Source: Caldivirga sp. (GTDB taxonomy: Archaea; Thermoproteota; Thermoprotei; Thermoproteales; Thermocladiaceae). From it: DNA of 18,310 nt. Each line of letters starts with the position of its first letter. Within the stretch, counting starts at the first letter, position 1. This document shows, in pieces, positions 2,891-18,310 of the stretch. Location: contig JAPWUH010000007.1 in assembly GCA_028275645.1 (NCBI GenBank), positions 1 through 18,310 on the forward strand, in the 5' to 3' direction. Below the pieces are notes generated by a model. It was not told where the DNA came from. It did no database searches and saw nothing but the letters and a program-made list of their open reading frames with translations. Made by a program: the position numbers and the translations under genes.

Positions 2891-3216
2891 TGCATGTAGC
2901 ATTGGACTGGTGATTGGGATTGGGGTTTAGTTGGTTGAATATTTTGGTAGGGGTTGTGTAATCCGTGGTTTACTTAAAGAAGGCTCTGGGTTATGGGTTG
3001 CCGTTGATGGGTATTTTAGTCTTCATAATCATTTTATGGCACGCATTTCCGTTAATACTTAAGATATTGAATTTATAGAACCTGGTTTCAGCACCTTAAC
3101 CGTGCCCTGGGTTTCCGAGACCAGTAGGGCAGGGAGCCCTAGGTGGCGGGGGTGCTGCGGTGAGGTGACCTGGGGTGACGGTGGGAGGTAGATGGTGGAA
3201 TCCCGTGAAAAGCCAC
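2891..3216. other. intergenic region, no gene seen
   Basis: Lies between leader 1 and the 3' end of the membrane operon. Minus-strand frames here either run out of phase with the 3217-4443 gene or lack a plausible start. From about 3070 to 3200 the DNA is GC-rich and probably belongs to the 3' untranslated region of the operon. No tRNA, clear terminator or repeat was recognised. Confidence 0.5.
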
Positions 3217-4443
3217 CTATTGAGAAACAGTGTGGAGGTGGTAGGTGGGTGGGGTTGGGGTTTGTTTCTTGGTGTTGCGGCAGTTGGTGACCTTGCCTAT
3301 GATGTCGCCTGCGATCCTTAGTCTCCTCGACATCTCCATCCTCATGGCCTCCTCGACCTCGCCTGGGTTCCAGATCCACCTGGTGTTAGTGTTTAAGGTC
3401 TCCTTGTATTTGATTAACTCCCCCAGCGCATCCCTTATCCCAGGTAGGTCTTGGTCGCAGAGGGTTAGCATGTGGGTTGCGTACATGATTAAACCCTCCT
3501 TATTGCCGTACTTAATGAAGTCCACTAATGCACGCTGGAGCTCCTCATCCTCCTGGGTTGCCTTCACACCCCCCTGCCTCTCATGCTCAGCATACACCCT
3601 CTCACGTATCCCCTCCAGGCTTGTGCTGTATGCCCTATAAACCCTATACGCCGTCTCACCAGTAAGCCCCAGCACCACCACTAGGCCTGCTAGGTCTATG
3701 TAGCCTGAGTACTTGGCTAGGCTGGGTATGCCACTTAGGGTTAGGGTGAAGGCTATGATGAAGATTACTGCGTTAACCCTGTTGAATAGTGGCTTCAATT
3801 CACGCACCTGCGGGTTACGTAAACCACCCAGCATTACCAGTGATGTGGCGGCCACCGTGAGGGATAGGACCTCGAAGGGGGTGGCCAGTGGCCTTGATGC
3901 CAGGTAGATTAACCCGGCGAAGCCGTAGATGGACACGGCAACCCCAACACCAGACACCGCATCGCTAACCACACCGCCTAGGCGACCCTTACCAAACCCC
4001 CTAATCACCCGGCCGAGGATCATCATGTAGAGCGCCGTTAAAGCCTGGGCTACGTAGGAGTAGGTGGGTGGCTTAGTGAACTGCCCTATGAAGACGGCTA
4101 GGTTACTGAAGCCGAAGTATAGGCCGATGGCTGGGGCCGCCAGGTCCATTAGCACCAAGCCAATTAACCCTGAGCCCTGAACCCTAATCACCACTGGGCC
4201 CCGCGCCCCACCACCCCTAGCGGTTAAACTGCCGGTGGCTCCTTCGGCAATTAGGCCGCCGATGGTTTTGATGGCGTAGTAGATTATTAATGGTAGCAGT
4301 ATTACGCCGTTGATGAAGGTTATGAGCCTTAGGAGGGCTAGTGGGTGTGTTGTTGGCGCTAGGGCGTTGAGCAGTATGTAGACTGCCACTAGGGCGGCTG
4401 TCCTTACTGCATAGCCCCTCCAGCTGGTCCTCAAGCGCACCAC
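3217..4443 (-). CDS. polytopic membrane protein with soluble C-terminal domain
   Basis: The last gene of the MoxR-DUF58 operon, 408 aa. Residues about 12-270 hold roughly seven or eight hydrophobic segments, beginning around 15-32 and 38-62. A glycine-rich polar loop occupies about 70-85. Residues about 275-408 form a charged, soluble and probably helical domain, with LQRALVDFIKYGNKEGLIMY as its most protein-like stretch and two Cys. The C-terminus is Thr/Pro-rich. The start is one of two adjacent GTG codons (4443 or 4440) overlapping the stop of the upstream gene, so the two are translationally coupled. I do not recognise the family. Position suggests a membrane partner of the MoxR/DUF58 module; this is an inference from the operon only. 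Confidence 0.85.
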   Translation of the reverse strand: MVRLRTSWRGYAVRTAALVAVYILLNALAPTTHPLALLRLITFINGVILLPLIIYYAIKTIGGLIAEGATGSLTARGGGARGPVVIRVQGSGLIGLVLMDLAAPAIGLYFGFSNLAVFIGQFTKPPTYSYVAQALTALYMMILGRVIRGFGKGRLGGVVSDAVSGVGVAVSIYGFAGLIYLASRPLATPFEVLSLTVAATSLVMLGGLRNPQVRELKPLFNRVNAVIFIIAFTLTLSGIPSLAKYSGYIDLAGLVVVLGLTGETAYRVYRAYSTSLEGIRERVYAEHERQGGVKATQEDEELQRALVDFIKYGNKEGLIMYATHMLTLCDQDLPGIRDALGELIKYKETLNTNTRWIWNPGEVEEAMRMEMSRRLRIAGDIIGKVTNCRNTKKQTPTPPTYHLHTVSQ

Positions 4444-5705
4444 CTCACGTAGGGCTCCCTCAACCTGTAAAGCCCCCTCACGAACTCCTCATACCTAGCC
4501 CTATCCATTGCGTACCCACCGTACTTGGCGTCCTCAAAGGCCCTTAGGCTACTCCACGATGGGCAATCCCCATTGCTCAACAGCCCCCTCCTACCCAACT
4601 CCCTGCAAATCTCCCTTGGCGTCATCACCCTGTGGTCAACATCCCCCCTCAAAATGTTCCTCTCGAAGACCTCCACAACCTCCCTGGTGTAGTCGTCAAC
4701 CACAAGTACCTTATGCACTTCAGCCTCATTACCAAGCCTAGCAGACACCTCGTGGCAGCCAACACCCCTAAAGACCACGTAACCACCCCCAACCTCCCCC
4801 TCAGGGCTTATTGAAACGGTGGCGCCTGGGGCTACCTCAATGGGTAGTGGTTCATTAACCCTCCACACCAGTGGTAGGTCTGCATCAATGCCGAGCTTAA
4901 TTAACCTACCACCACCCCAACCCCTAAGCGGCACGAAGACTCCGCTCAAGTTGGGTTGCTGGTACTCCTCACCCACGGTGCCCGTGGGCTTCCCCCCAAC
5001 CTTCACCAGCGGCTTCTCCGCAATCCTCCTACCCTTAGCCTCTTCACCAGCTCCCTCCTTCACGGTTGCCTTAGCGCCACCCATGTTCCTCAGGGTGGTT
5101 ATTAGCGAGAATGCGATTAAAATGGCGATAATGGCTATGAGTAGGTAAATCAACCACTGCATGGTTATGTTAACGACGTGCACCGCGGTCACCTTAACCG
5201 TGGTGCCTTGGCTGGATGTGCCCGAGCCCGAAACCCCACCAGACCCACCCCCTCCCCCACCCCCTGGCGTGGTGCCGTGATAAGTGGTGTTCACGGAGCT
5301 TGGGTGGGTGTTAAGTTTAGGCGTAGCCAAGTGTATTATCGGTAATGAAATGGTTAGGCTCATGAAGGGCATACCCGCATTAGCTTTGGGCATGGTCATA
5401 TTAGCTTTAGGCATAGCCACGTTTATTATAGGTAGTGCAATGGTTAGGCTCATGAAGGGCAAGTTGAAGCCAAATCCACGTAGCCCATGCCCAAACCCAG
5501 ACAAACCTGAGCCAAACTCAAACTGCCCAATTCCAATGCCAACCCAACCCGTCCCGAAGCCCCTCAAACCCAAGCCCCTACCCAGGTTAGCTGAGCTACT
5601 GGTGCCACTGGGCGTTACCATTAGGAGGTGTATCGAGTTCATTAGGATCCAGGTTATGAACAGGGCCGTTACTAGGAAGAGCACCGGTAGGTAACCCCTC
5701 CTCAT
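4431..5705 (-). CDS. two-TM protein with Gly/Phe repeats and DUF4129-like C-terminal domain
   Basis: 424 aa. An N-terminal signal-anchor (about 7-30) is followed by a low-complexity Gly/Phe region (41-80) and a tandem pair of 21-residue units (82-102 and 112-132), each centred on PFMSLTI-LPII. Then come a Ser/Gly linker with a Gly8-type run (148-155) and a second TM helix (181-204). The remainder is soluble: a beta-rich, Ig-like region (about 255-335) and a helical C-terminus with TPREICRELGRRG (362-374) and FEDAKYGG (390-397). The last two resemble the TPRE and ERARYG motifs of DUF4129, a domain commonly found in MoxR/DUF58/transglutaminase loci. The repeat region should be extracellular and the DUF4129-like part cytosolic. 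No transglutaminase domain is present. The start overlaps the preceding stop as ATGA. Confidence 0.85.
   Translation of the reverse strand: MRRGYLPVLFLVTALFITWILMNSIHLLMVTPSGTSSSANLGRGLGLRGFGTGWVGIGIGQFEFGSGLSGFGHGLRGFGFNLPFMSLTIALPIINVAMPKANMTMPKANAGMPFMSLTISLPIIHLATPKLNTHPSSVNTTYHGTTPGGGGGGGSGGVSGSGTSSQGTTVKVTAVHVVNITMQWLIYLLIAIIAILIAFSLITTLRNMGGAKATVKEGAGEEAKGRRIAEKPLVKVGGKPTGTVGEEYQQPNLSGVFVPLRGWGGGRLIKLGIDADLPLVWRVNEPLPIEVAPGATVSISPEGEVGGGYVVFRGVGCHEVSARLGNEAEVHKVLVVDDYTREVVEVFERNILRGDVDHRVMTPREICRELGRRGLLSNGDCPSWSSLRAFEDAKYGGYAMDRARYEEFVRGLYRLREPYVRWCA
5310..5462 (-). repeat. internal tandem coding repeat
   Basis: Two 63-bp units (5400-5462 and 5310-5372) separated by 27 bp encode the two near-identical 21-residue segments of the DUF4129-like protein. 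They share the stretch ATGGTTAGGCTCATGAAGGG on the plus strand. The spacer itself repeats a short Met-Pro-Lys-Ala-Asn unit. This is an in-frame duplication, so copy number may vary between strains. Confidence 0.8.
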
Positions 5706-6460
5706 GGCCCAACCCCCACTAGGCTCAGTACAGCTGAGCCTACCGTGGCTATTAGGAAACCAAACAGCGGGTTTGCGAAGGCGTATATGGAGCCGGCCGT
5801 GAGCAGTAGTGCACCTATTGTTGATAGGGCGCCGCGCCCCGTGAAGCCACCCCGCCTAAGCCCTAGCAGTAGCGTGGCTGTGACCACTATGCCCAACACC
5901 ACAACGCCCACTAGCCAAAGCTCGTAACCCAGCACCATGGTCCAGGGCAGGGGTAGAGTGAGGATTGCCATTCCCGAACTTAACGTAAGCCTAACGCCCG
6001 ACGTTACAATGGGCTTAACGTTAGCGAATAGCGGCGTCACCAACCCACCAATGGCCAGTGCCGACCCCCCAATCATTAACACGGCTGAACCAAGCAGTGG
6101 CATGCCAGTTACCCTATTAACCCTAATGAGCTGTAATGAACCCCTCAGGTCCTCAACGCCGGCCAGTAGCATTGATGTGAATATGAAAAGCAACGTGAGC
6201 ACTATCACTAAGTACGCCGACACCGATTCAATAGGGGGAACGAGCCCCCTGGTTATTTGCGTTAAACCAAGCGGGTTAGTCATAATTAGGGCCACGTAAT
6301 AGGTGATTTTAAGTGAATACTGGTTTACGAGCTCCTGCAGCCTATTAATGTCCCCAGACCTTAAGAGGTGGCTCATGAGTATATTCACTATTATTGTTAG
6401 TATTAAGAACGTCACGAATAACACGGCTAAAGCCCTGGTTAATGATGAAAACCTCAGCAT
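5702..6460 (-). CDS. integral membrane protein of the MoxR-DUF58 operon
   Basis: 252 aa, very hydrophobic. An N-terminal helix (about 8-30) is followed by a polar extracellular-type loop (31-80) and about five further TM segments: 82-101, 118-142, 178-200, 213-229 and 232-250. There are no Cys and no catalytic motif. The ATG start lies 31 bp after the stop of the preceding gene; the stop overlaps the next start as ATGA. I do not recognise the family. The location between DUF58 and DUF4129-like genes suggests a structural membrane subunit of the same complex. Confidence 0.85.
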   Translation of the reverse strand: MLRFSSLTRALAVLFVTFLILTIIVNILMSHLLRSGDINRLQELVNQYSLKITYYVALIMTNPLGLTQITRGLVPPIESVSAYLVIVLTLLFIFTSMLLAGVEDLRGSLQLIRVNRVTGMPLLGSAVLMIGGSALAIGGLVTPLFANVKPIVTSGVRLTLSSGMAILTLPLPWTMVLGYELWLVGVVVLGIVVTATLLLGLRRGGFTGRGALSTIGALLLTAGSIYAFANPLFGFLIATVGSAVLSLVGVGP

Positions 6461-6491
6461 ACTTAGTATTAATTATGGGGTATTCGGTATT

Positions 6492-7094
6492 TTAAGCTTT
6501 GCCTCTAATGGTTGCGGAGTGCACCATGACGATGGCCATCAACGCCAGGTAAACCACGATAAACACGGCCAACACCAGCATTGGGGGTAGTTCAAGCACC
6601 GTAGCAACCCTCATGAGTGCGTATAGGGCTAGTGAAACCGCTAGGAGAACCCCACCCACGGCAATGGCCCAGGCGTTCATGGCGTCGAGCTCCCTGACCT
6701 CCCTCGGGTCATGGCCATACCTCCTCATTGCGGCTTCAAACCTCTTAGACACCTCGTAGGCGTTCCCAAGGAAGTGGGCGTATAGGCTGGCTGCAATGGA
6801 CACCCCTAGGTACGGTAATGCGGAGGGCTTTATGGTGCCTAGGGTGAAGTGGGTGAGGTAGGGTATGTAACCCATGCTTAATGCAACCAGGAGGCTTGAG
6901 ATTAAAGCCGAGGCTAAGCCAGCGTAACCAACCCCCCTACCCCTAACCCAGCCCACTACACCTACCAGGGCCACTATCACGAGCCCCACGTATACGATGA
7001 GGCTTGGGTACTTTGCCAGGAATTGGAGTGTTAGGAATGGTGTTAACGGTAGTAGTAGGGCTAGGGCTAGTGAGGCAACCCTCACGACAACCAC
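6492..7094 (-). CDS. six-TM membrane protein of the MoxR-DUF58 operon
   Basis: Up to 200 aa with about six hydrophobic helices (near 5-25, 30-50, 57-73, 90-110, 140-162 and 170-193). One strongly charged loop (111-138, with AMRRYGHDPREVRELD) is probably cytosolic. Two starts are possible: GTG 7094, overlapping the DUF58 gene by 13 bp, or GTG 7085 (codon 4), which gives the common GTGA overlap and a cleaner N-terminus (RVASLALALL). I prefer 7085. No known domain was recognised; it is a conserved-position membrane partner in a MoxR/DUF58 operon. Confidence 0.85.
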   Translation of the reverse strand: MVVVRVASLALALLLPLTPFLTLQFLAKYPSLIVYVGLVIVALVGVVGWVRGRGVGYAGLASALISSLLVALSMGYIPYLTHFTLGTIKPSALPYLGVSIAASLYAHFLGNAYEVSKRFEAAMRRYGHDPREVRELDAMNAWAIAVGGVLLAVSLALYALMRVATVLELPPMLVLAVFIVVYLALMAIVMVHSATIRGKA

Positions 7095-8434
7095 CTAATC
7101 CTAGGCATCAACCTAGCCACCAGGCTCCCAACACCCTCGCAGAGTGGATCCCAGGCAACAACCTGGGTCCACCTCGGCAACGCCCTATACAGCCTAGCCC
7201 TACTCGGGGTAACCCCGAGGCATGGGGTTACCATGTACTCGCCCAGCAACTCCCTGTGGGTTATTGAACCGTGGGTTACGTCTATTATTAAGACCCTGCC
7301 CAAGCCCCTGCACCTACCCTCATCACCCCGGCATAGGTAACTCCTCAACCTACGCACGGACTGCCCGTCGGCTATGTTGGTTAGGAGTATCAGTATTGGC
7401 TTAGTCTCGGCAATAACCCTCAACAACCCAGGGTCCAGGTAACCCTCGGGGGTAGGTTCCTTAATCCCCTCAATTATTAGTAGTGCGTTTAGTAGCCTAT
7501 AGAACTGCGTCTGACCCGACGAGGGTATTACGTAGATGCCCGTGTTGGGCAGGGTCCATAGGCCTATGTTGTAGCCGTACCTAATCAGGGCCTTGGCTAG
7601 GGAGAGTATTAGGTAGATTGAGTATTCGAGTGGGTTCTCGTGGGGTAGCCCATACCTCATGCCCTCTGAGACGTCGATTAGGAAAACCACTGTCCTAAGC
7701 CCCTCCCTCTCATACTCATTGGACAGTAACTTACCTTGGGTAGACCTGGCCGAGGCCTTCCAGTTTATGAACTTGAATGGGTCGCCTGGCGCATACTCCC
7801 TAACCTCAATGAAGTCCGTGGAGTGGGGGCCTAGCCTTATTGGCGTGACCCTGGGTGTGACGAGGGATGGCTTAACCCTACCCACACCCCTCCTAATCAC
7901 CCTGTACCTTGGGAGTACGGTTAACCTAAGCCCCTCATCCCACGAACCCTCAATAATCCTCAAGCCGAACATGTGGTGGTAGGTGTACTTAACAAGCCCA
8001 AGCTCAAACTTACCCCTCCTAAGCGCCTTAACCCTCACCACGTACTCCCTGTCAAGATCCCTAAAGCCCTTGAAGACCACGTGCACTGAGTTACCCCTAG
8101 TCACCTCTAGGCTCTCGGCGTACCTCGCGTAGTCCTTGCTATCCCTATATGAGGCTGGTGGTAGGGCTATGGATAATAGACCGAAGCCACCCTTAACCCT
8201 AACCCTAGCCTTAACCTCAACCTCATCACCCGTGAAAACCCTATCCCTACTTAAAACCAGCTCAACGGAAACCTGGGGCTCATCACCCCCCGTGTACAGT
8301 GCGAGGGTGACCATGAGCACGGAGAATATGACGGGTATTAGGAGCTCCTTCGCCGTGCCTATGAAGGCCAGCACGGAGAGTACTATTGGTATTGCCAGTA
8401 GAGTGAAGTAAGACCTGGCGACCTCCTTAACCAT
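7082..8434 (-). CDS. DUF58 domain protein
   Basis: 450 aa. Two TM helices at the N-terminus (about 8-25 and 30-47) precede a beta-rich region (52-190). The DUF58 signature follows at 207-230: DFIEVREYAPGD, then INWKASAR. Downstream is a von Willebrand A-like segment with FLIDVSEGM (251-259), a weak version of the DxSxS metal site. This is the usual family architecture: membrane-anchored, with a cytosolic VWA-like fold, working with a MoxR ATPase. The gene starts at ATG 5 bp after the MoxR stop. The family is linked to assembly or activation of envelope or protein complexes; the client here is unknown. The identification is secure, the role in this organism is inferred. Confidence 0.95.
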   Translation of the reverse strand: MVKEVARSYFTLLAIPIVLSVLAFIGTAKELLIPVIFSVLMVTLALYTGGDEPQVSVELVLSRDRVFTGDEVEVKARVRVKGGFGLLSIALPPASYRDSKDYARYAESLEVTRGNSVHVVFKGFRDLDREYVVRVKALRRGKFELGLVKYTYHHMFGLRIIEGSWDEGLRLTVLPRYRVIRRGVGRVKPSLVTPRVTPIRLGPHSTDFIEVREYAPGDPFKFINWKASARSTQGKLLSNEYEREGLRTVVFLIDVSEGMRYGLPHENPLEYSIYLILSLAKALIRYGYNIGLWTLPNTGIYVIPSSGQTQFYRLLNALLIIEGIKEPTPEGYLDPGLLRVIAETKPILILLTNIADGQSVRRLRSYLCRGDEGRCRGLGRVLIIDVTHGSITHRELLGEYMVTPCLGVTPSRARLYRALPRWTQVVAWDPLCEGVGSLVARLMPRIRWLS

Positions 8435-8439
8435 TTAAA

Positions 8440-9402
8440 TCACTTGGGTACGGGTAGCTTATTAACGTACTCCAGTACCACGTCCCTACCACTGACCTCG
8501 CCCTCCAGGGCTAGCTCGGGTTTAAGCACGACCCTATGCCCAAGGACGTCCGGCGCCATGAACTTGACGTCGTCGGGTATGACGTAGTCCCTACCATCAA
8601 TAACCGCAATAGCCCTGGCAATCCTCATCAACGAGAGCAGCCCCCTTGGGCTTGGGCCGGCCATAACCCTATCATCATCCCTAATCCTCCTAAATGAAAG
8701 AATGTACTTGATCACCTCCCTATCAACCCTCACTCTACCCTCAATGAACTGCCTAATGGCCAGTAGCTCATCAGCGTTCATCACGGTTGAGGCATAGCCC
8801 GTTGGGTCGTCCGTCATCCACTTAATCCTCCTGTTGAGCAACTCCTCCTCCTCACCCTCATCAGGGTAGCCGAGGCTCAGCTTAACCATGAATCTGTCGA
8901 GTTGTGCCTCTGGGAGTGGGTAGGTTCCCTCATACTCAATGGGGTTTTGGGTGGCTATCACTATGAATGGTTGAGGAAGTTTAAGCGTCTCACCCTCAAT
9001 TGTGACTTGAAGCTCCTCCATAGCCTCAAGCAAGGCAGCTTGAGTCTTGGGTGGAGCCCTATTAATCTCATCAGCAAGCACGAAGTTTGCGAATATCGGG
9101 CCCCTCATGGTTTCAAACCTACCCTCGGCAGGTCTCCAAACCTTGGTACCTACTATGTCGCTTGGTAGGAGATCCGGGGTGAATTGAATCCTAGAGAAGC
9201 TTAACCCAAGGACCTTAGCCATGAGCTTGGCTAGGAAGGTCTTCCCAACACCCGGCTTATCCTCAAGGAGCACGTGCCCACCGGCTAGGATGGCTGCTAG
9301 GATCTTCGCCACAACCTCCTCCTTACCTGAGTAGAACCTAAGTACCTCATTAAGCGTAGCCTTAACCCTATCCCTAACAAAACCAATATCAACACCATCC
9401 AT
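8440..9402 (-). CDS. moxR: MoxR family AAA+ ATPase
   Basis: About 320 aa from ATG 9402. An upstream in-frame GTG at 9423 would give 327 aa but lies only 8 bp from a TTTAAA box at 9429-9434. ATG 9402 sits about 30 bp from that box, as expected for a leaderless archaeal message. Numbered from 9423: Walker A DKPGVGKT (55-62), Walker B VLADEINR (115-122), sensor 1 IATQNP (156-161), and an arginine-rich region with SPRG and the C-terminal lid. This is the complete MoxR domain order. MoxR proteins are ATP-driven chaperones that act on VWA-type partners. The adjacent DUF58 gene is the expected partner, and this is the first gene of the six-gene operon. Confidence 0.97.
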   Translation of the reverse strand: MDGVDIGFVRDRVKATLNEVLRFYSGKEEVVAKILAAILAGGHVLLEDKPGVGKTFLAKLMAKVLGLSFSRIQFTPDLLPSDIVGTKVWRPAEGRFETMRGPIFANFVLADEINRAPPKTQAALLEAMEELQVTIEGETLKLPQPFIVIATQNPIEYEGTYPLPEAQLDRFMVKLSLGYPDEGEEEELLNRRIKWMTDDPTGYASTVMNADELLAIRQFIEGRVRVDREVIKYILSFRRIRDDDRVMAGPSPRGLLSLMRIARAIAVIDGRDYVIPDDVKFMAPDVLGHRVVLKPELALEGEVSGRDVVLEYVNKLPVPK

Positions 9403-9428
9403 AAACAAGGCTATAATGCACACGCCTC

Positions 9429-10148: not shown

Positions 10149-10156
10149 GCATAAAC

Positions 10157-10166: not shown

Positions 10167-10185
10167 TATCTGCAGATATTTAATT

Positions 10186-10324
10186 GTGCAGCCGCACAGC
10201 GGCCAAAGCCGCCTAAACCATGCTGCACGGAACCCACCCCCGCCTCATGATCACGACCAAGGCTACCGAATCCCTACGATCCATACGGGTATCCGTCCCC
10301 TACCCGTCATGAGGCGGGGGTGGG
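10186..10324 (+). other. self-complementary 5' region of nuclease 1 (structured leader or ncRNA)
   Basis: Two inverted-repeat systems lie end to end. First, GTGCAGC (10186-10192) pairs with GCTGCAC (10222-10228) around an inner GCGGC/GCCGC stem (10199-10203 and 10208-10212). Second, an 18-bp perfect pair, CCCACCCCCGCCTCATGA (10233-10250) and its complement at 10307-10324, encloses 56 nt. The right arm contains ATG 10309, the likely nuclease start. The enclosed loop carries a 19-mer (10287-10305) that is the exact complement of 11219-11237 near the 3' end of the same gene. The region is open in the nuclease frame, so an N-terminal extension is possible, but its Pro/His-rich product has no counterpart in the paralogue. 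Confidence 0.6.
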
Positions 10325-11316
10325 ATGCCACATATCGGCTTCTGCAGTCTACTGCAGCTAAGGTAATTGTTGAGGCTAGTATGCTTAGTGACAATAGGAG
10401 GCTTCATGATCCTGTTCCCGATGAGGTCCTGTATAAGGCGTGGGTTAAGTATTACGATGGCCGGAGGTATGATGATGGCTTAAGGTACGATGACCTATGC
10501 GACACCAATAGGCCTTCAATAGCCGTCTTCTGCCTAATGAGGGCTATGAGCTTTGATGGGTGGTATGGTGGTGATGGGGATGAGAATGGTGGCTATGGGT
10601 TATGGTCCCAGATACTGGATAGGCAATTTAAGTATGATGCATTAGCCGGTGGTAATGGTGGCATTATGCCGTTTAGGGGTCAATTAGCCGCCTACATTGG
10701 TGGCATTGGTAAGTTTATTGTTGGGGAACCGGACTTAATGCTCTACGACATGAAGAGCGGAGACGTGGGGCTGGTTGAGGTTAAGCACGTACCAGCGTTG
10801 AGTGGGTATGACTACAGGTTACTCCTTAGAAAGGCCATCATCCAATTATCGATATACGCCTGGCTTCTCAGAGACCTCTACGTTAACGTTAACTGGATTA
10901 CAGCCTACCCAGTGATCTTCCGCACCACCTGGCCTAGAATCAGGAATACCACTTACATGATTTACCCAGTTAAGATACTACCCACAGGCCACGTGAAGAA
11001 CCTCATCATTAAAGCCCACCATATGCTTGCCAGAGGTAGGGGAGGTAGGGTGAGTATTGACGATTGCAGGTTAGCCAAGCTAATTTACGGTGACTATGCT
11101 GCATGCGATGGTGGCCTAATCAACATATGCGCACCGCAGTACGTGCTTGAGGTTAATAGGAGGATCAACAATGTGTTGTTTGGGGCACGCTGGCGTGTAG
11201 ACAGGTCGCTGTGCGGCAGGGTAGGGGACGGATACCCATGCTTATTAATATTAACCATACTGCTCACCGCAGTAGCAATACTCATGATGAGGACAGTGAT
11301 TAGCTCCCTTAACTAA
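10309..11316 (+). CDS. Cas4/RecB-like PD-(D/E)XK nuclease with C-terminal membrane tail
   Basis: 335 aa from ATG 10309; GTG 10186 would give 376 aa. The paralogue at 15824 has no equivalent of the extra residues, so the shorter form is preferred. Core motifs: GEPD (139-142), EVK (157-159) and QLSIY (179-183), corresponding to the Asp, Glu-x-Lys and QxxxY motifs of Cas4/RecB nucleases. Two Cys pairs flank the core: C64/C75 (CX10C) and C253/C266 (CX12C, after DD), resembling the iron-sulfur cysteines around the Cas4 core, though Cas4 usually has one plus three. Residues about 296-335 are a tail absent from the paralogue, with a TM helix at 311-327, so this copy may be membrane-tethered. Predicted role: a metal-dependent DNA nuclease, possibly linked to CRISPR adaptation or defence; unproven. 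Confidence 0.82.
   Translation: MRRGWDATYRLLQSTAAKVIVEASMLSDNRRLHDPVPDEVLYKAWVKYYDGRRYDDGLRYDDLCDTNRPSIAVFCLMRAMSFDGWYGGDGDENGGYGLWSQILDRQFKYDALAGGNGGIMPFRGQLAAYIGGIGKFIVGEPDLMLYDMKSGDVGLVEVKHVPALSGYDYRLLLRKAIIQLSIYAWLLRDLYVNVNWITAYPVIFRTTWPRIRNTTYMIYPVKILPTGHVKNLIIKAHHMLARGRGGRVSIDDCRLAKLIYGDYAACDGGLINICAPQYVLEVNRRINNVLFGARWRVDRSLCGRVGDGYPCLLILTILLTAVAILMMRTVISSLN
11219..11237 (-). repeat. inverted copy of the 10287-10305 element
   Basis: GGGTAGGGGACGGATACCC on the plus strand is the exact reverse complement of 10287-10305. A second 11-bp inverted match lies next to it: 11207-11217 against 10191-10201. Both fall in the tail of the nuclease gene that is missing from its paralogue. Confidence 0.85.
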
Positions 11317-11400
11317 AACCTAAAGTTGATTAAGGAGCATTCCCCTTAGTTTTGACTCGGTATTGCTCATTGACCCCCAGGGTTGATGGGTTTATGGTTG

Positions 11401-12945
11401 TTAACCGATGGGTTTTATGGCTATGGGCTTGATGTCTACGTTAACCGTGGCGCCCTGGCTCGGTGATATGCTTAGGTAATAGTAGTAATTGGATGTGAGG
11501 GTTAGTACGCCTTGGTAACTCTGTGTATTATAGGCGAGGTTAATGTCCTGGGTGGCTCCATTGTATGCCTTTTGAATTAGCCATATGGCCATTGGTTCAT
11601 TTGATGTTATGTTTACTGAGAGGGTTATGTTGTAGCCGTAGGGCACTATTATCGGTATGTTAGCCCAAGGCAGGTATGGTTCAGCAGCAACCTTCGTGAA
11701 TTTGTAGGTATCCTCACGCTCAACAATATCCAGGTAATTACTTATGTTGCTGAGGATTACGGTGGTTACGGTTAACCCCATGTTGTTGCCATCACTCATA
11801 GACCAAAGAAATGGAGTATATAAGCCGAAGGGTAGTATGAGGGTTAACGTGGTTGGCCCAGTGATGTTAAAGGGCACGATTACCTGACCAAAACGATAAC
11901 TATATATAACAACCTCAGTAGTGTTAGTGCACGACATGTTTAACGTAACCAAGGCATTAAAGCCATATGGTATGAATATGTGGGCGATTAACGCTTCGTA
12001 AATACCCGCCTTCATTTGGCTTAGTGTTATATTGTCAAGTGGCCTAAGCTCACTCAGCAACTGTTCACGCATCAACTCTTCGTAGTAGCCCTTGTAATTA
12101 CTTGTGACTTCTTCATATGCAGTCTCTAGGTTTGTGTACTTTGCCTCAAGCTGCTTATACTGACCCTGCAGTGAGTTATATTGACTCAGCAGGCTTGTGT
12201 AGTTCACCCGCAGCACCCCGTAGAGGCTCATCAGTGTCGTGTAGTTTGCCTGTAACTTTACGTATTGGCTTTGCAGATTAGTATAATTTGCTTTAAGCAT
12301 TCCATACTGGCTCATTACACTGGCTAGGCTCGCATTAATCGACGTAAGCTGATTCCTTAATGTCGTGTAGTTCACCAGCAATGAATCATATAGGCCCCGT
12401 AAGCTTGTGTAATTTGCCTTAAGCGCCTCATACATGCCCATTACGCTAGCCAACTTTGCACTAGCCATTCCGTAGAGTAAGCCTAAAACCACGACAATCA
12501 TTACCAAAACAACAATACCCACAAGGTATGGCCTAGGCGTGGGCCCAGGCTGGCGTGGGTTGGGTGGAGTTTGGGGTTGCCCTCTATGCACCTCTGATGA
12601 TAGTAATAATACTCCAATGAATACCATAATTAATGTAGTTACTGCTATTAATCCGGGTATTGCCGTGACGATTAGATTGGTGATCGTTATTTTGACTGTA
12701 GTTGTAGTCACAACGTGAGCGGTTGCGTTACTACTCACTGCATGGTGTAATAAAAGGAGTGAACGAGGGAGTGGACGGTAAAGTACGCCTATAAGCCAGC
12801 CGGTTAGGAAACCCACTGGAATTATTATTAAATACACCCCCATTATCCTCCGATTCACACATGAGAAATTAGGCTGGGTTAATAAGGTTTTAGGGTTGAG
12901 GAATGGAATGCGGGCTTCATGATCCATGGAATTATTAGGCGCCAT
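11401..12945 (-). CDS. membrane-anchored coiled-coil glycoprotein candidate
   Basis: 514 aa from ATG 12945; Met35 (12843) is an alternative just before the first TM. Hydrophobic helices lie near 35-56, 90-115 and 140-160, with a Pro-rich linker between the second and third. Residues about 161-300 form a coiled coil in which N-glycosylation sequons recur every 14 residues, exactly two heptads: N178, N192, N220, N234 and N248, with an NAS at 204. The C-terminal domain (about 305-514) is beta-rich, Tyr/Asn-rich and carries many further NxT/S sites, so it should lie outside the cell. The layout recalls stalk proteins of crenarchaeal S-layers, but this copy is anchored at its N-terminal side and no specific family was recognised. 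Confidence 0.85.
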   Translation of the reverse strand: MAPNNSMDHEARIPFLNPKTLLTQPNFSCVNRRIMGVYLIIIPVGFLTGWLIGVLYRPLPRSLLLLHHAVSSNATAHVVTTTTVKITITNLIVTAIPGLIAVTTLIMVFIGVLLLSSEVHRGQPQTPPNPRQPGPTPRPYLVGIVVLVMIVVVLGLLYGMASAKLASVMGMYEALKANYTSLRGLYDSLLVNYTTLRNQLTSINASLASVMSQYGMLKANYTNLQSQYVKLQANYTTLMSLYGVLRVNYTSLLSQYNSLQGQYKQLEAKYTNLETAYEEVTSNYKGYYEELMREQLLSELRPLDNITLSQMKAGIYEALIAHIFIPYGFNALVTLNMSCTNTTEVVIYSYRFGQVIVPFNITGPTTLTLILPFGLYTPFLWSMSDGNNMGLTVTTVILSNISNYLDIVEREDTYKFTKVAAEPYLPWANIPIIVPYGYNITLSVNITSNEPMAIWLIQKAYNGATQDINLAYNTQSYQGVLTLTSNYYYYLSISPSQGATVNVDIKPIAIKPIG

Positions 12946-13155
12946 ACCACCCTTAACCCACGCCTACCAACAGGTTGGATATGGCCTGCCTAACCGCAAC
13001 TACTGACCAGGGTTGTGGTTATTTAAGTGCTAAGGTTTTAATGAATACTGGGTGAGCAGTAATGGTCCCGGTTATCGCCTATGGGTTCCATATGGCTTTA
13101 CTACGCTACCCAGGTTATGAACTCTAACGGTAGTTTCATTAACCTGAACCCAAAC
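12946..13155. other. intergenic region between two minus-strand membrane genes
   Basis: A minus-strand TATA-like CACTTAAATAACC near 13030-13018 could drive the coiled-coil gene, with a leader of about 45-50 nt. A GGTGGT stretch immediately precedes ATG 12945. Nothing else was recognised. Confidence 0.35.
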
Positions 13156-13899
13156 CTAATCCTCCTCCACGATACCACCCTCGATCACGCTGACTGACTG
13201 GGTGGTGAGCCACTTAACGAACTCGAGGGCGCGTTCAACAAACCCATTCCCCTCAACCCACGCCCAACACTCAAGGTTATTCAACACACCGCCAGTGAAG
13301 TTCATGCTCCCAACCCCAACCAGGTTAAGCCCAGGCAGTATAATCATCTTAGCGTGGAGGGGCCCCTTAGGCAGTATGATAAGCTCCTTAACCACACTGA
13401 CACTGGCGAACCCGGTGAGGTACAGGACGCCACCAATAATAAGGAGTATGATGCCGCCGAGTAACAGTACCATGCAGGCCACCGCTAAGGCGCCGAATAA
13501 CACCAGTGTAAGGGGGCTGTAACTACTAATATTAGTATTAATTAAGTATACATAAGCCCCAATGACAATTAGGATTATTATTGCAAGCACAAGCATCACG
13601 GCACCGATTACCGCGAGTCTCTTCCCACGCCTCCCCCTGGACTTCAGGACACGTTCACGTAACATTTGAAGCGCCCTAACGTGGTTTGGGTTAGTTTGGT
13701 CATTCATTGTTATGAGTGTGATGTTCGCCTTCCTGGCCAGGTTCCTGAGGATTTGGGCAGTCTCAGTACTCACCCATGGGCTTATGATTATCGCCTCAGT
13801 TGCATTGTTAAGCCTGCCCAGCACCACCTCACCTATTGCCTTACCGCAGGTTACCTCAACGCTTCCCATCCCTCTCGCCGTGAAGGAGGATTGCACCAC
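13156..13899 (-). CDS. PLD-like protein with an inserted TM hairpin
   Basis: 247 aa from GTG 13899; GTG 13896 and ATG 13869 are alternatives. The N-terminal half has the beta-alpha pattern of a phospholipase D subdomain (EAIIISPWVSTETAQIL, 35-51). Two long hydrophobic stretches (about 95-120 and 130-163) are inserted in the middle. The C-terminal half holds the HxK part of an HKD motif (H182, K184) and GSMNFT (197-202), as in PLD-type nucleases and phospholipases. The Asp expected five residues after Lys is Pro189. There is only one HKD motif, so activity would need a dimer. The catalytic face is predicted to be cytosolic. Members of this family include DNases, helicase-linked nucleases and lipases; the substrate here is unknown. 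Confidence 0.85.
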   Translation of the reverse strand: MVQSSFTARGMGSVEVTCGKAIGEVVLGRLNNATEAIIISPWVSTETAQILRNLARKANITLITMNDQTNPNHVRALQMLRERVLKSRGRRGKRLAVIGAVMLVLAIIILIVIGAYVYLINTNISSYSPLTLVLFGALAVACMVLLLGGIILLIIGGVLYLTGFASVSVVKELIILPKGPLHAKMIILPGLNLVGVGSMNFTGGVLNNLECWAWVEGNGFVERALEFVKWLTTQSVSVIEGGIVEED

Positions 13900-13992
13900 C
13901 TCCAGAGGATAAGTGGTGAAGTTTTTCTGCTTTTCCGTTATTCATAAAAATTTATTTAATCATATTTATGTATAAGTCCTCTTTAGGCCATT

Positions 13993-14154
13993 ATGTGTAT
14001 TAATTTGTCCGTAACGCTGCACGACGAGATTAGGTTATGCTGGCTAACAACGTGTTTAAAAAAATGCCGCTACGAAATGCTGCTGATGAAGCGCTGGGCA
14101 CCTGTGTCGGTGCCAGAAACGACGCCAGGGGTTAAGCAACTCATAGTGCATTGA
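13993..14154 (+). CDS. possible small Cys-rich protein
   Basis: 53 aa, starting MCINLSVTLHDEIRLCWLTT and ending QLIVH. Cys at 2, 16, 21 and 25 (CX4CX3C) in a basic context. A TATA-like TTTATGTATAAG (13965-13976) lies about 22 bp before the ATG, which fits a leaderless start. The gene is divergent from the PLD-like gene. It matches nothing I recognise, and random open frames of this size occur, so it is only a candidate. The hairpin GGCACC-TGTGTC-GGTGCC (14097-14114) lies inside it. Confidence 0.4.
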   Translation: MCINLSVTLHDEIRLCWLTTCLKKCRYEMLLMKRWAPVSVPETTPGVKQLIVH

Positions 14155-14254
14155 AGGATTCGATGTTAGCTGACTGCATTAACCCTAATCCTCCCAACCC
14201 TCCTAATCCTAATCCACCCTCAAAACCCCTTCCTAATCCCCTCCTTTTCCACCC
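14155..14254 (-). other. G-rich 3' region (minus strand)
   Basis: Downstream of the 121-aa gene, the minus strand carries repeated GGATTAGG and GGGTTGGGAGG units with at least six G-runs of three or four within about 75 nt. It could act as a terminator or form a G-quadruplex. No gene was seen. Confidence 0.4.
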
Positions 14255-14620
14255 TTACCCAATTGATATGATTGGGTACTCGGTTGGTAGGTTTGCGCCT
14301 ACCGTCAAGTCCACTGCACAGTCGAGTAGCCCAAGCCTCCTGGCCTTCCTGACGGGCACCGCCACGGCTACCTCGTACCCGTCCCTGTACATGACCATCG
14401 CCGTGACTGGGTACACGTGCTGCCAGAATAGTAGGTCGGCGAGCGCCCTGTTGCTTACCTCAACCCACTTCCCGCTGCAGTATATTTCAACCCTACTTCC
14501 AACGTTCCTGTACCTGAGCACCGCATAGTTCTTCCTAGGCTTCGGCCTGTTCTCATTCACCCTGGTCTGGGCCTTGACCGTGGTTTTGGCCTGCGGTTTC
14601 GGCTCACTAACCCATGTCAT
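14255..14620 (-). CDS. hypothetical protein, 121 aa
   Basis: The ATG start at 14620 lies about 27 bp from the TATA-like GTTTATTTAGG at 14652-14642, so the message is probably leaderless. The first 30 residues are Lys/Pro-rich and probably disordered. The folded part (31-121) has alternating hydrophobic residues, VYPVTAMV (69-76), VAVPVRKARRLGLLDC (86-101) and no TM. Its central part resembles the small protein at 15370-15729 (WV, then V-aromatic-PV, then AV and R/E-L-x-L-x-D), suggesting distant paralogues. No domain was recognised. Confidence 0.65.
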   Translation of the reverse strand: MTWVSEPKPQAKTTVKAQTRVNENRPKPRKNYAVLRYRNVGSRVEIYCSGKWVEVSNRALADLLFWQHVYPVTAMVMYRDGYEVAVAVPVRKARRLGLLDCAVDLTVGANLPTEYPIISIG

Positions 14621-14641
14621 GTGTGGTTACGCTAGTACGCT

Positions 14642-14652
14642 CCTAAATAAAC
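14642..14652 (-). promoter_or_regulatory. TATA box for the gene at 14255-14620
   Basis: GTTTATTTAGG on the minus strand, centred about 27 bp upstream of ATG 14620. Position and sequence fit an archaeal core promoter. Confidence 0.55.
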
Positions 14653-14670
14653 TTAACCATGGGGTTGAAT

Positions 14671-14806
14671 CACCCCTCCCCGCCTTTAAGGGCGGGGAAT
14701 CGCACCGTAAGCCTTATTAAGGGGTGCCTCGCTTAGCTATGCGCCTCCCCAACGGGGAGGCAGCCCCAAACCCAATCCCAAACCCCACCCCGCGCGGGGT
14801 GGGTTG
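14671..14806 (-). ncRNA. TnpB 3'-end / reRNA-like relic (IS605/IS1341 type)
   Basis: Three GC-rich hairpins occur within 126 bp: CCCCGCC/GGCGGGG (14678-14697), GCCTCCCC-AAC-GGGGAGGC (14743-14761) and a perfect 20-bp palindrome (14784-14803). On the minus strand the last element reads GATTCCCCGCCCTTAAAGG followed by a GGGGAGGGG run. This is the type of sequence found where archaeal tnpB genes end and their guide (omega/reRNA) scaffold lies. The frame over it ends Pro-Arg-Pro-stop, as at 16803-16880. No intact tnpB is present, so this is a stranded or decaying end. The assignment rests on motif memory, not a search. Confidence 0.5.
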
Positions 14807-14819
14807 TATTTGCTTTTGA

Positions 14820-15144
14820 TTAGAATGGTTCGGGTATTTTGAACTTCCCAGCCCCAATTAACCCGTACCTGTCCTCGATAACCCTGCTGAACCTCTCAAC
14901 CCTGACAACATTACCCTCAACAACCTCCCTAGCCACAACACGGATAATGACACTGGCATCGTGGATAGCATGGAGGCTTGCCGTTGGGTACCCATCCTCC
15001 CCAAACCAACTCTCCCTAATCGCAGGGGACTCGTGGCTCAGGAGGACTCTTCAACTGCCCTAGGAGCCACCTCCCGGTTAGAGTATGCACCAGGCTTATG
15101 ATCAGCTTGTTTGCCCTACTGACATCAACAAGCAGGGTTGCAGG
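14820..15144 (-). pseudogene. frameshifted gene remnant
   Basis: Two overlapping minus-strand frames look coding, with codon use like the neighbours. Frame a (15144-15016, 42 codons) includes LLVDVSRANKLIISLVHTLT. Frame b (15050-14820, 76 codons) includes YPTASLHAIHDASVIIRVVA and ends IPEPF-stop. One frameshift around 15020-15050 would join them. Neither has a proper start, and stops cut off further upstream sequence. The family is not recognised. It lies upstream of the TnpB-like hairpins and could be part of the same decayed element, but it lacks any visible TnpB motif. Confidence 0.45.
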
Positions 15145-15369
15145 CTAAGTTAGGAGAGTAGGAGAATGAATGGGTTAGCCCTCCCTAGGGGCTGGGCGCT
15201 AGTCACGTTTCATAAACCCAAGTCCAAGTCACTGGGCCCACCCACACCAGGCTGGATTGCTGTGATTAGGTGAATGAGGGTTAGCAGGGTCACTGCTCTT
15301 AGCTTACCTCAAGACTTGAGACAACAGATATGATATTAGACACCCTCCCATACATTTTCCATTAAAACC
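15145..15369. other. intergenic or decayed region
   Basis: No reading frame of convincing length. A 19-codon plus-strand frame (15274-15333) resembles the N-terminus of a small DNA-binding antitoxin but stops at once. CTCAAG-A-CTTGAG at 15308-15320 is a small palindrome. The stretch looks like decayed DNA continuing from the pseudogene. Confidence 0.35.
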
Positions 15370-15807
15370 CTAGGCCCCCCTCTTGGGGCCCTTTTTCTTA
15401 TCCTCCTCTTCGTACTTTCTTAACAAGTCATCAGGCGTGTAATTTGATATGCGGGGTAGTTCAGCAATGTTGTTGGCCTCAATCCACTCGGTGACGTAGT
15501 CCCACAGGTTAAGCTCCTTGACAGCCCTCTCAGAGACCGCAAAGGTGTGGTCAAGCCTGTCGCCATTCATAATATCCGCCACTGGCCACACGTCCCACTT
15601 TTCAAGCGTCCTCATGAGTAGCCAGCCCTCAAGGCCCCTGTCATCAACCCACCTACGCCGCTTAACATTCCACACGTAGGTCACATCCCCCTTAAAGTCA
15701 TCCCTGAACTTGATTAACCCAAACCTCATACATATATTATCCACGAGGCTCTTAATAAGCCTAACCTCGGTTTTGAACAGGTTGTGGTGTATAAGTTTAT
15801 TACTCAC
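15370..15807 (-). CDS. hypothetical protein divergent from nuclease 2
   Basis: Up to 145 aa from GTG 15807; ATG 15729 (codon 27) would give 119 aa. The GTG overlaps the promoter of the divergent nuclease, and a minus-strand TATA-like AACTTATAC (15797-15789) lies downstream of it, so the shorter form may be real. Tryptophan-rich core: YVWNVKRRRWVDD (43-55) and KWDVWPVADIM (70-80). The C-terminal tail (about 128-145) is highly charged, ending KKKGPKRGA. No TM and only one Cys, before codon 27. The WV-to-D region resembles that of the 121-aa protein at 14255-14620. The function is unknown; the divergent layout suggests co-regulation with the nuclease. Confidence 0.7.
   Translation of the reverse strand: MSNKLIHHNLFKTEVRLIKSLVDNICMRFGLIKFRDDFKGDVTYVWNVKRRRWVDDRGLEGWLLMRTLEKWDVWPVADIMNGDRLDHTFAVSERAVKELNLWDYVTEWIEANNIAELPRISNYTPDDLLRKYEEEDKKKGPKRGA
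15789..15800 (+). promoter_or_regulatory. divergent core promoter between 15729/15807 and 15824
   Basis: GTATAAGTTTAT reads as a TATA box on the plus strand, about 30 bp before ATG 15824. Its complement (ATAAACTTATAC) can serve the minus-strand gene. The sequence is nearly symmetric, so one site may serve both directions. Confidence 0.5.
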
Positions 15808-15823
15808 AGCTGGCTTTACCCAT

Positions 15824-16672
15824 ATGCCCTGCCGTGGGGCTGGGATGGCCCACAGCTACCTTGATTCAATCATTAAGGAGGTTATTGGGAGGATTAACAC
15901 TGGTGATGTGTCAATCAATGCCATTAAGAGTGCGATTAGGGCCTTTGAGGGGAGGCATATCATTAGAAGTAGCCTTTGTAGTGGTGATATTGTTCCAGTC
16001 TCCTGCCTCATGGATGCCGTTAGGGTTGAGGCGGAGCAAAGCAGTGGGGTTGAGAGGATTGGTGCCGTGGACGCCGTGTTTTCAACCGTGGCCGATAAGC
16101 TTTTCAAGGAGGCTGCACTTAGCATTGATGTTAGGGGCACCTTACCTGCCAAGGGGGTGGCTTGCGGGCTTCTTGAGGATTACGGGGTTTACGTCTGTGG
16201 TGAGCCTGACCTGCTTCTCTTTGATAACAATGGCCTGCTTGGCGTTGTTGAGCATAAGGCTGCCTTAACCTTCGGTAAGTATTCACTCAGCGTGAAGAGG
16301 GCTGTGGTGCAGGCTTTAATGTACCTTTGGCTTTTCAGGGAGTACTACACAAAGCCGCTGGAGTGGGCTTGGGCCTTCATCACCATCACCAGGTACTCCC
16401 TGGCCAAGGATGAGAAGGCTAGGGGTAGGGTTATCCCAATCTGCGTCAGGGTTAATGATAATATTAGTACCCTCATTAGGGAGACCTACCAAGCCTTTAA
16501 GAATGACTCAGTGATTAATATTGATGATTGTAGGCTAGCGAGCTTAATTCATGGACCCGGCTCAGGGTGCCTTAACGGGCGTGTAGTCGTCCCACTAAAC
16601 CCCGGTGTGGTTAACCGCGCAGCTAATAACCTACTTTTCAAGCACTGGGACATTATTAACGCTACGACTTAA
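15824..16672 (+). CDS. Cas4/RecB-like PD-(D/E)XK nuclease, paralogue 2
   Basis: 282 aa. ATG 15824 fits the TATA box at 15789-15800 as a leaderless start; ATG 15845 is an alternative. Core motifs: GEPD (126-129), EHK (143-145) and QALMY (163-167), aligned with those of the nuclease at 10309. Flanking Cys pairs: C52/C61 (CX8C, followed by LM as in the paralogue) and C236/C249 (CX12C, within DDCRLASLI). Both proteins share VNR-AANN/INN-LLF near the end; this one then stops, with no membrane tail, and should be soluble. The fold and motifs point to a metal-dependent DNase, probably with a Cas4-like iron-sulfur site. It is not a typical Cas4: the Cys arrangement differs and no cas1/cas2 is adjacent. 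The role is inferred only from the family and the nearby arrays. Confidence 0.84.
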   Translation: MPCRGAGMAHSYLDSIIKEVIGRINTGDVSINAIKSAIRAFEGRHIIRSSLCSGDIVPVSCLMDAVRVEAEQSSGVERIGAVDAVFSTVADKLFKEAALSIDVRGTLPAKGVACGLLEDYGVYVCGEPDLLLFDNNGLLGVVEHKAALTFGKYSLSVKRAVVQALMYLWLFREYYTKPLEWAWAFITITRYSLAKDEKARGRVIPICVRVNDNISTLIRETYQAFKNDSVINIDDCRLASLIHGPGSGCLNGRVVVPLNPGVVNRAANNLLFKHWDIINATT

Positions 16673-16787
16673 GTTTAATTTAAGTTTAATTAAAGCAATT
16701 GATAGACAACCCGGTTATGGTTAACGCAAGCCCATTACCATAACCATTAGTGACGCCTACACCACAGCCACTTATCTAACCCAAATG
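16673..16787. other. AT-rich 3' region of nuclease 2
   Basis: TTAAGTTTAAT is repeated twice directly after the stop codon (about 16670-16692), followed by unremarkable sequence. It may include the terminator for the nuclease gene. Confidence 0.3.
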
Positions 16788-16880: not shown

Positions 16881-16933
16881 TCAAAAACCTATCAGAATAT
16901 TGAAAAATGGATCACCACCATTCTATGCAATCC

Positions 16934-17996
16934 CCTTCAATTCTCCTTTGAGATCCTCCCTCAAAACCCTAAACCCAGGCTCAATGAAGCCAGGAGTGGC
17001 TTCCTTCAATTCTCCTTTGAGATCCTCCCCAGGTTGCCTAAGCCACCTGCTAGCGTTTGCGCTAGTTTAATGACCTTCAATTCTCCTTTGAGATCCTCAT
17101 AAAACAAATTACAGTACCTGTAATGGGCATTGAGAGCCTCCTTCAATTCTCCTTTGAGATCCTCTGAATGCCAGGGCATTTGGTAGGTCTATGCCTAAGA
17201 GATTTCGTCCTTCAATTCTCCTTTGAGATCCTCATGTGCATGAAATTCAGTCGGTACCCACCGCAGTGGGTGTCGAGCCTTCAATTCTCCTTTGAGATCC
17301 TCCAGGGGGCGGTTAGGGTAGATGAAACAACGAGATTCTTTAACTTCCTTCAATTCTCCTTTGAGATCCTCTTTGCCTGGTTTTGATTATGCCCAGTGCC
17401 TCCCTGAGTTTCACCCTTCAATTCTCCTTTGAGATCCTCTTCTTTAATTAACTCTCTTATAAGCCTTGATAAATTCCCCTCCTTCAATTCTCCTTTGAGA
17501 TCCTCTCAAACGCCTTCCCCCTGGACTTCCACGACACCAGGGAATTAGAGAAACCTTCAATTCTCCTTTGAGATCCTCTTAGGGAAATGGGTGTAAAGAC
17601 TTATGTCTCTGCAAACGGCACCTTCAATTCTCCTTTGAGATCCTCCCTGTATCCAACCGATGAATTTAGCTAGCCACGTGTAATTGGGGCTAACCTTCAA
17701 TTCTCCTTTGAGATCCTCGGCCTCGGGGAGATCGAGGCTGAATCCAAAAACCCTCACGCCTTCAATTCTCCTTTGAGATCCTCTGAACAAACATTAATAG
17801 CCGATGCTAAGATGCGTGGTATTCCACACCTTCAATTCTCCTTTGAGATCCTCTCCCTATACCCAACGACACCGACGGATGCGGCGAAGTTAATCAGTGA
17901 ATCCTTCAATTCTCCTTTGAGATCCTCACCGTAATGCTTTTAAAGGTGTAGTGGTAGCCCCTAATTATGGGCCTTCAATTCTCCTTTGAGATCCTC
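16934..17996 (-). CRISPR. CRISPR array 2: 16 repeats, 15 spacers
   Basis: Sixteen identical 25-nt repeats, from 16934-16958 to 17972-17996, with spacers of 40-49 nt. On the minus strand the repeat begins GAGGATCTC, has AAAG in the loop and ends GAGAATTGAAGG. It differs from the main array 1 repeat at positions 3 and 13 only, and is identical to the oldest clear repeat of array 1 (68-92). The leader lies at 17997 onward, so this array is transcribed in the same direction as array 1. Uniform repeats and the shared leader suggest the same adaptation and processing machinery. No cas genes are next to it. Confidence 0.98.
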
Positions 17997-18297
17997 CGGT
18001 TCCTCTGGCTTGTTTGGGTTTTTAAGTTTTGTGGTTTATTTTAAACGGTGGCCTTTGGAACAGGGCTCCGGGGCTCATTCTATGACTCATTCCTGTTCCG
18101 ATGGTGTTTATGGTGGGATTGAATGGTTGTTCCAATTGAAAGAAAATGAAGAAATTGAAACAATGTTCCAATGGTTTTAAGTCCAATGTAAAATGTGGGG
18201 ATTGCATGTGATCGTGCACTTTAGATGGTGGTTGAATGTGGTGTGAAGTTAAAGTTGAGGTATGGTGTTGATGCATGTTTCATGCATTTTAACTGGT
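17997..18297 (-). promoter_or_regulatory. leader of CRISPR array 2
   Basis: Near-copy of leader 1. TATA-like CTTAAAAACC at 18026-18017, again about 26 bp from the first repeat. TGTTCC boxes at 18094, 18128 and 18164, with the same 34- and 36-bp steps as leader 1, plus the inverted TTTGGAACA at 18054-18062. Similarity is strong to about 18200, is then lost, and returns at the TGCATG palindrome (18271-18290). Short frames in this region are shadows of conserved non-coding DNA. Confidence 0.88.
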
Positions 18298-18310
18298 TGA
18301 CAGGCATGAT

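Follow-up and report, generated by a model that had tools for sequence, protein, structure and literature searches.

What is the role of two Cas4-like nuclease genes located between two arrays of clustered regularly interspaced short palindromic repeats (CRISPR)? This arrangement is found on a contig of a Caldivirga sp. (C170), which in its whole length of 18,310 b constitutes the window analysed here and belongs to an assembly (G000) of 1.32 Mb (1,319,790 b) in 209 contigs that is 68% complete. The first-pass annotation had suggested that the products of the two genes, P0001 and P0002, form a distinct Cas4/Csa1-related family that might act in spacer acquisition. Our results suggest, with moderate confidence, that they are instead stand-alone paralogous PD-(D/E)XK DNA nucleases with a Cas4-type core that operate outside CRISPR adaptation. 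The window was compared with four other genomes of the genus (g1; G002 to G005, 94-99% complete), of which G002 consists of one contig (2,077,567 b), and with wider collections.

The nuclease pair and its catalytic core

Both open reading frames (ORFs) are present where the annotation had placed them, and the relatives P0003 and P0004 start at the same methionines. The two proteins are homologous (BLASTP: 29% over 251 columns, E = 3e-28) and, by this comparison, are paralogues, which indicates that the motifs they share are homologous and not due to chance. These motifs (GEPD, E-x-K and QxxxY) had been reported as common to both proteins, and their positions indeed align: D142, E157-V-K159, Q179 and Y183 in P0001 correspond to D129, E143-H-K145, Q163 and Y167 in P0002. 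The register was confirmed by hhalign; MAFFT sets the motif lysine of P0001 two columns off, the sequence itself reading VEVK. Both proteins therefore present the motif II Asp, the motif III E-x-K and the QxxxY of RecB-type PD-(D/E)XK nucleases. The distance from this Asp to the Glu is 14 residues in P0002 and 15 in P0001, as against 14 in the Cas4 protein SSO0001.

The catalytic core is related to that of Cas4-type nucleases encoded outside cas operons (solo-Cas4), as determined with hhalign over 50 columns (E = 7e-6, probability 84%; E = 5e-5 and 67% after removal of an alignment row identified as NucS). Like the solo-Cas4 proteins of Thermoproteales (PF01930/PF12705), which have GxPD/GxxD, E-x-K and QxxxY in the same register, the pair is encoded away from cas1; in contrast to them, P0001 and P0002 have no Pfam match, no 1+3 cysteines and no motif-I histidine, and P0001 has a membrane anchor. 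The order of structural elements and the Foldseek/VIA matches (DinG nuclease, RecE, SSO0001, Pcal_0546 and MGME1) agree with the core fold in models that are weak (mean predicted local distance difference test, pLDDT, of 57.9 for P0002 and 42 for P0001); a further model, built with P0001 placed first, was poorer. A library of viral structures returned phage PD-(D/E)XK nucleases. No family was assigned to either protein in Pfam or NCBIfam at E = 1, in PADLOC at 0.01 or in PHROG, and searching solved structures by sequence with alignment A1 gave ribosomal L24 (0.4) as the sole match. The nuclease domains of AddB, AdnAB and DinG type share the PD-(D/E)XK core, whereas P0001 and P0002 have no helicase domain and a different cysteine layout.

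Few relatives were detected. Among 5.8 billion proteins, P0001 had a single relative (P0003, 91%) and P0002 had seven (P0004 to P0010, 47-94%); a profile of all ten members recovered no others in the same collection. P0002 was matched in one of the 45 genomes of the order. The family profile matched two of the 81 genomes of the class, namely G000 itself and, weakly (0.0042), G071, the one match among the other 80 class genomes. The matched protein, P0016 (185 amino acids), is 38% identical to P0001 over 56 residues that include the core motif (E = 2e-6 in a single comparison). P0016 (L059:1342-1899), a RecB-like protein from another genus of the class without a Pfam family above cut-off, is the best outside match of the profile. 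None of the four other genomes of the genus contains the family. When GTDB contigs and IMG/VR were scanned with pattern seeds, no relative was confirmed; phage records yielded nothing for P0001 and P0002, and plasmid records nothing for P0002, the only one of the two that was run. The literature, searched largely outside subscription journals, offered no paper tied to this nuclease family or to Caldivirga without Cas1, and the accessible portions of PMC3189178 and PMC4668684 contain nothing on either subject. In the collections searched, the family is thus very small, lineage-specific and narrowly distributed and, judging from these sequences, P0001 and P0002 are a real and rare pair of divergent nucleases whose core is Cas4-like.

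The two branches differ at their C-terminus. P0001 and P0003 share a strongly hydrophobic C-terminal stretch (mean hydropathy 2.43), which hydropathy analysis did not find in P0002 or its seven relatives, and helix 309-334 is the best-predicted part of the P0001 model. P0001 is probably membrane-tethered. The first-pass annotation had mentioned neither this helix nor the additional conserved Cys of the P0002 branch described below.

Cysteine layout: possible disulfides or a possible iron-sulphur cluster

In Cas4 and Csa1, a single Cys precedes the core and three follow it, according to the portions of PMC4176176 and PMC3466216 available to us, and the same 1+3 layout was found in the Cas4 and Csa1 proteins of sister genera that we examined (Pfam was used to check ten proteins from these loci and others). 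P0001 and P0002 present a 2+2 layout instead: C64, C75, C253 and C266 of P0001 align with C52, C61, C236 and C249 of P0002. Relative to SSO0001 and Pcal_0546 (DUF83), the family has two C-terminal Cys in place of three and one extra N-terminal Cys. Of the aligned Cys, five in P0001 and seven in P0002, four fall in the same columns of the 277 compared (hypergeometric P = 7e-7). These four are the only Cys common to both branches and are kept in 9/9 members that reach that far (P0005 is without the N-terminal part), a conservation on which the first-pass annotation had staked its proposal. The spacings it had given were correct for the CX8-10C before the core but not in general for the CX12C after it, because that spacing is restricted to P0001 to P0005 and P0006 to P0010 have CX9C.

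Csa1 (Cas4', DUF911, PF06023) resembles the pair in approximate length and RecB-type motifs, as far as the sections of PMC4176176 at hand describe it; in contrast, it adjoins cas1 in sister genera and shows no profile similarity to the pair. Membership of Cas4 or Csa1 was ruled out by the Cys layout, motif I and the profile tests. What remains of the proposed Cas4/Csa1-related family is a separate family of nucleases, Cas4-like in its core, for which no kinship to Csa1 was found.

Each branch has additional Cys. Four further Cys are conserved in the P0002 branch: C114 and C125, which are both Cys in 8/10 members and both replaced in the other two, C207, and C3 where the N-terminus is present and alike. 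In the P0002 model, which is weak, C114 and C125 lie opposite each other in a hairpin (strands 113-117 and 122-126). P0001 possesses an extra pair (C302-x8-C311) ahead of its membrane helix and an odd total of seven Cys. Cys makes up 2.1-2.9% of P0001, P0002 and P0006; its share across 197 ORFs from the genus is 0.84%. Among these ORFs, those with 4-7 Cys comprise 30 even and 6 odd counts, a range chosen after seeing the counts, and all ORFs with at least two Cys comprise 74 even and 40 odd.

Two explanations of the conserved Cys need to be weighed. They may form intramolecular disulfides that stabilise a hyperthermophile nuclease (C52-C61, C114-C125 and C236-C249 in P0002; C64-C75, C253-C266 and C302-C311 in P0001), an explanation to which we give about an even chance. 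Alternatively, the 2+2 Cys could bind an iron-sulphur cluster as an iron staple of AddB/Cas4 type with shifted ligands, which we regard as possible but more doubtful. The cluster is suggested by the position of C61, which occupies the place of the N-terminal Cys of Cas4 relative to the catalytic Asp (68 residues in P0002 and 67 in P0001, as compared with 67 from C32 in SSO0001; 66-68 in the members checked), by C236, which follows the helix that precedes the Cys triad of Cas4, and by the restriction of sharing to exactly these four Cys. However, no CxxC or CxxxC motif surrounds them, the C-terminal pair is separated by 9-12 residues, unlike the Cas4 and Csa1 triads, whose Cys stand close together, and the P0002 model is poor in these regions (pLDDT below 50 at 42-50 and 224-282). 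Every proposed disulfide is local, with 9-13 positions between partners, and thermophilic archaea use disulfides widely, Pyrobaculum aerophilum ranking highest by structures in the parts of PMC3177088 we consulted, although Caldivirga is not named in the main text of that survey so far as those parts extend. Against disulfides, the seven Cys of P0001 leave at least one unpaired, and metal sites also give even Cys counts. Because the proteins are Cys-rich, C114 and C125 face each other and are present or lost together, Cys counts in the genus are biased towards even numbers and thermophilic archaea commonly employ disulfides, disulfides may rank somewhat above the cluster. The family is useful for asking whether the iron-sulphur staple of Cas4 is replaceable.

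The arrays, Cas1 and the role of the pair

The two nuclease genes do lie between two co-oriented arrays, both with leaders, as the first-pass annotation had described. Repeats are 25 nt long and spacers 40-49 nt in both arrays. Array 1 is composed of 36 repeats within 4 mismatches and one 26-nt unit with a 1-nt insertion (135-160); its leader-proximal repeats are identical, whereas the distal ones, at low coordinates, vary. A perfect 24-nt palindrome is contained in one of its spacers (1485-1525). The leader-like flanks of the two arrays are 88% identical over 193 nt, and the leader of array 1 (approximately 310 bp) recurs beside repeats with 79-91% identity in eight other loci (six in G000 and two in G003) and with 80% over 268 bp at a ninth. 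P0002 borders array 2 on its trailer side, and P0001 is kilobases away from either leader. The eight contigs listed with this repeat total 57,407 of 1,319,790 b, or at least 4% of G000, so the neighbourship of nucleases and arrays needs no special explanation. The same repeat is present in G003 (30 matches) and a different one in the arrays of G002, two genomes without the nuclease family.

Cas1 was not detected in the genus. PF01867 matched 13/25 genomes of the family (12 over cut-off) but none of the five genus genomes, and a profile built from eight sister-genus Cas1 proteins found none in these five at E up to 10. This profile recovered Cas1 in sister loci, including loci outside its build (L020 and L025); the search of the genus had no positive genome of its own. 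The loci for this observation are L062:3741-4067 and L097:23-1813. Effectors were nevertheless identified in G000, G002, G003 and G004, and arrays in G000, G002 and G003. The effectors of G002 and G003 are of type I-A, and the cas4 of G002 is truncated to its C-terminal half. G004 presents cas6-cas4-cas2 without cas1, with 24 nt between cas4 and cas2, a position occupied by cas1 and a Cas_APE2256 gene in L024, a locus of a sister genus. No Cas1, Cas4 or Csa1 was found in G000, 68% complete as it is. The arrays had been described as lacking cas genes, and scans of 13 ORF products of the contig recognised none (Pfam; NCBIfam on 10); however, type III-B-like genes are encoded on another contig of this incomplete assembly, with RAMP matches over cut-off and a cmr3 match below it. 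Association with cas1-cas2, not demanded of solo-Cas4, is thus missing on the contig, and Cas1 is missing from the incomplete G000 and the four other genomes. Assembly gaps could hide Cas1 in G000 or G003 and, less easily, in G002. Pyrobaculum islandicum and Pyrococcus abyssi provide precedents in which Cas1 is missing beside arrays that make CRISPR RNA, as reported in the available part of PMC3396285.

Spacers appear to turn over in this genus without detectable Cas1. L037:30-2052 and L043:11566-13597 represent one array locus that G000 and G003 have in common, with 90% identity across 2 kb that include the leader and run outward from it. The only visible leader-proximal spacer of G000 at this locus differs from that of G003, and no match beyond 13 nt links the 26 spacers of G003 to the 81 of G000, which indicates that spacers were probably gained after the two genomes split. 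For one spacer, a near-match of 28 nt adjoins a solitary repeat of G003 (L046). The larger question is how Caldivirga arrays gain spacers when Cas1 went undetected in all five genomes, including the single-contig G002.

In the reading that we favour, P0001 and P0002 would belong to the PD-(D/E)XK superfamily as DNA nucleases that have a RecB/Cas4-type core and probably depend on metal, and would constitute a very small accessory family specific to Caldivirga-type archaea. As stand-alone enzymes and not an adaptation module, each would trim or degrade DNA from its ends, P0002 in the cytosol and P0001 while anchored in the membrane; the most plausible targets are foreign or damaged DNA, which they would destroy. 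As structural staples, by disulfide or by cluster, the conserved Cys pairs would hold the N- and C-terminal segments. The proximity to arrays is most likely incidental, because G000 has numerous arrays whose leaders are homologous, and here they flank an island of accessory genes. This would add to the Cas4/RecB-type nucleases a very small divergent branch with an altered Cys layout and one probably membrane-tethered member.

Several points weigh against this reading. The core reaches only E = 0.035 against the profile of CRISPR-type Cas4 and profile comparison with Csa1 yields no similarity, so that the kinship to Cas4 depends on about 50 core columns and shallow alignments. The P0001 model has no match in the PDB at E = 1e-3 or better. 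The customary motif-I histidine (H62 in SSO0001, H94 in Pcal_0546) is absent, and the family has no conserved His, the single apparent His column being an artefact of E-H-K aligned against EVKH; an invariant D91, 38 residues ahead of the catalytic D129, lies near the usual place of the Cas4 His. The protein search is confined to relatives with exact 5-residue words in common, and the family may be associated with arrays elsewhere, the gene neighbours of its eight relatives, which are encoded on metagenomic contigs of up to 7.9 kb, lying outside our data. Finally, the role in defence is what we infer.

A role in adaptation, in which the pair would replace Cas4 and Csa1 in trimming prespacers for the flanking arrays, appears quite improbable. 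The Cas4-like core, the location between two arrays, the occurrence as a pair, as Cas4 and Csa1 also act, and the type III-B-like effectors of an assembly without recognised Cas4 or Csa1 are all compatible with it. However, the four other genomes of the genus are without the family even where they have arrays (G002 and G003, the latter with the same repeat), none of the five offers a Cas1 partner, neither gene adjoins a leader, and one chance neighbourship is unremarkable at the frequency of repeat-bearing contigs. The proposed function in spacer acquisition is therefore unsupported. It would be still more speculative, and to our mind hardly probable at all, that, in a genus that lost Cas1 while its spacers continue to turn over, this lineage recruited a membrane-anchored and a soluble Cas4-like nuclease to capture incoming DNA jointly, degrade it at the membrane and pass the fragments to a Cas1-independent integration of spacers at the flanking arrays. 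We also consider it unlikely that the pair came from a virus or plasmid as exonucleases of an integrated element. The region of approximately 9500-16700 has no listed DNA match in 24 further genomes of the family except for a dispersed repeat alongside (at most 12 candidates scored per genome, and the small neighbours not searched as proteins genome-wide), its proteins are mostly without families, and the phage nucleases returned by the viral structure library point in the same direction; on the other hand, no match in IMG/VR, phage or plasmid records was confirmed (plasmids for P0002 only of the two nucleases), no integrase was recognised, element borders and transfer RNA genes not being searched for, and none of the 107 spacers of G000 and G003 matches 2900-16900 of the window beyond 17 nt.

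Gene map of the contig

Table 1. Features of the 18,310-b window
Feature	Coordinates	Strand	Remarks
CRISPR array 1	68..2586	(-)	strand from leader position; 37 repeats of 25 nt; ends near contig start
Array 1 leader	2587..2900	(-)	similarity to repeat-flanking sequence at other loci
Six-gene operon, not cas	3217..9423	(-)	
Weak DUF4129-like protein	4431-5705	(-)	operon member; below cut-off
DUF58 protein	7082-8434	(-)	operon member
MoxR-type AAA ATPase	8440-9423	(-)	operon member
P0011, 128 amino acids	9562..9948	(-)	no assigned family; divergent from P0001, gap 360 nt
P0001, 335 amino acids	10309..11316	(+)	PD-(D/E)XK nuclease, Cas4-like core; 2+2 Cys
P0001 predicted C-terminal transmembrane helix	11245..11301	(+)	residues 313-331; hydropathy and model
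P0013, 514 amino acids	11401..12945	(-)	membrane protein with long coiled coil
P0014, 247 amino acids	13156..13899	(-)	PLD-like protein with membrane helices; PLDc_2 match below cut-off
P0015, 121 amino acids	14255..14620	(-)	no assigned family
P0012, 145 amino acids	15370..15807	(-)	no assigned family; divergent from P0002, gap 16 nt
P0002, 282 amino acids	15824..16672	(+)	PD-(D/E)XK nuclease, Cas4-like core; 2+2 Cys plus C114/C125, C3, C207
CRISPR array 2	16934..17996	(-)	16 repeats; trailer end toward P0002
Array 2 leader	17997..18310	(-)	reaches contig end

Both nuclease genes are divergent from a gene for a small protein, as had been noted (Table 1), but P0011 and P0012 show no mutual similarity. 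As conserved partners of the nucleases, these small proteins were rejected, being unrelated to each other. IMG/VR gave no confirmed match for P0012 and P0015. The two proteins encoded between the nuclease genes that have membrane helices are P0013 and P0014. The PLD-type match of P0014 is weak (0.0013, under the curated Pfam cut-off); its membrane helices lie inside the PLD-like domain, and it might be a second membrane-bound nuclease of the island.

Three further proteins of the operon have no Pfam family. The closest DNA matches of its MoxR-DUF58 part (7035-9400) among the candidates listed are copies in a sister genus (g4), at 70-72%, as compared with 69% to another copy in G000 (C209). This part may have been transferred, being closer to g4 than to the copy in its own genome. 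Rfam gave no match in the window at gathering score. A dispersed element of approximately 110 b at 16782-16894 has many copies in genomes of the genus and family, and its 25-b hairpin motif recurs at 14673-14697.

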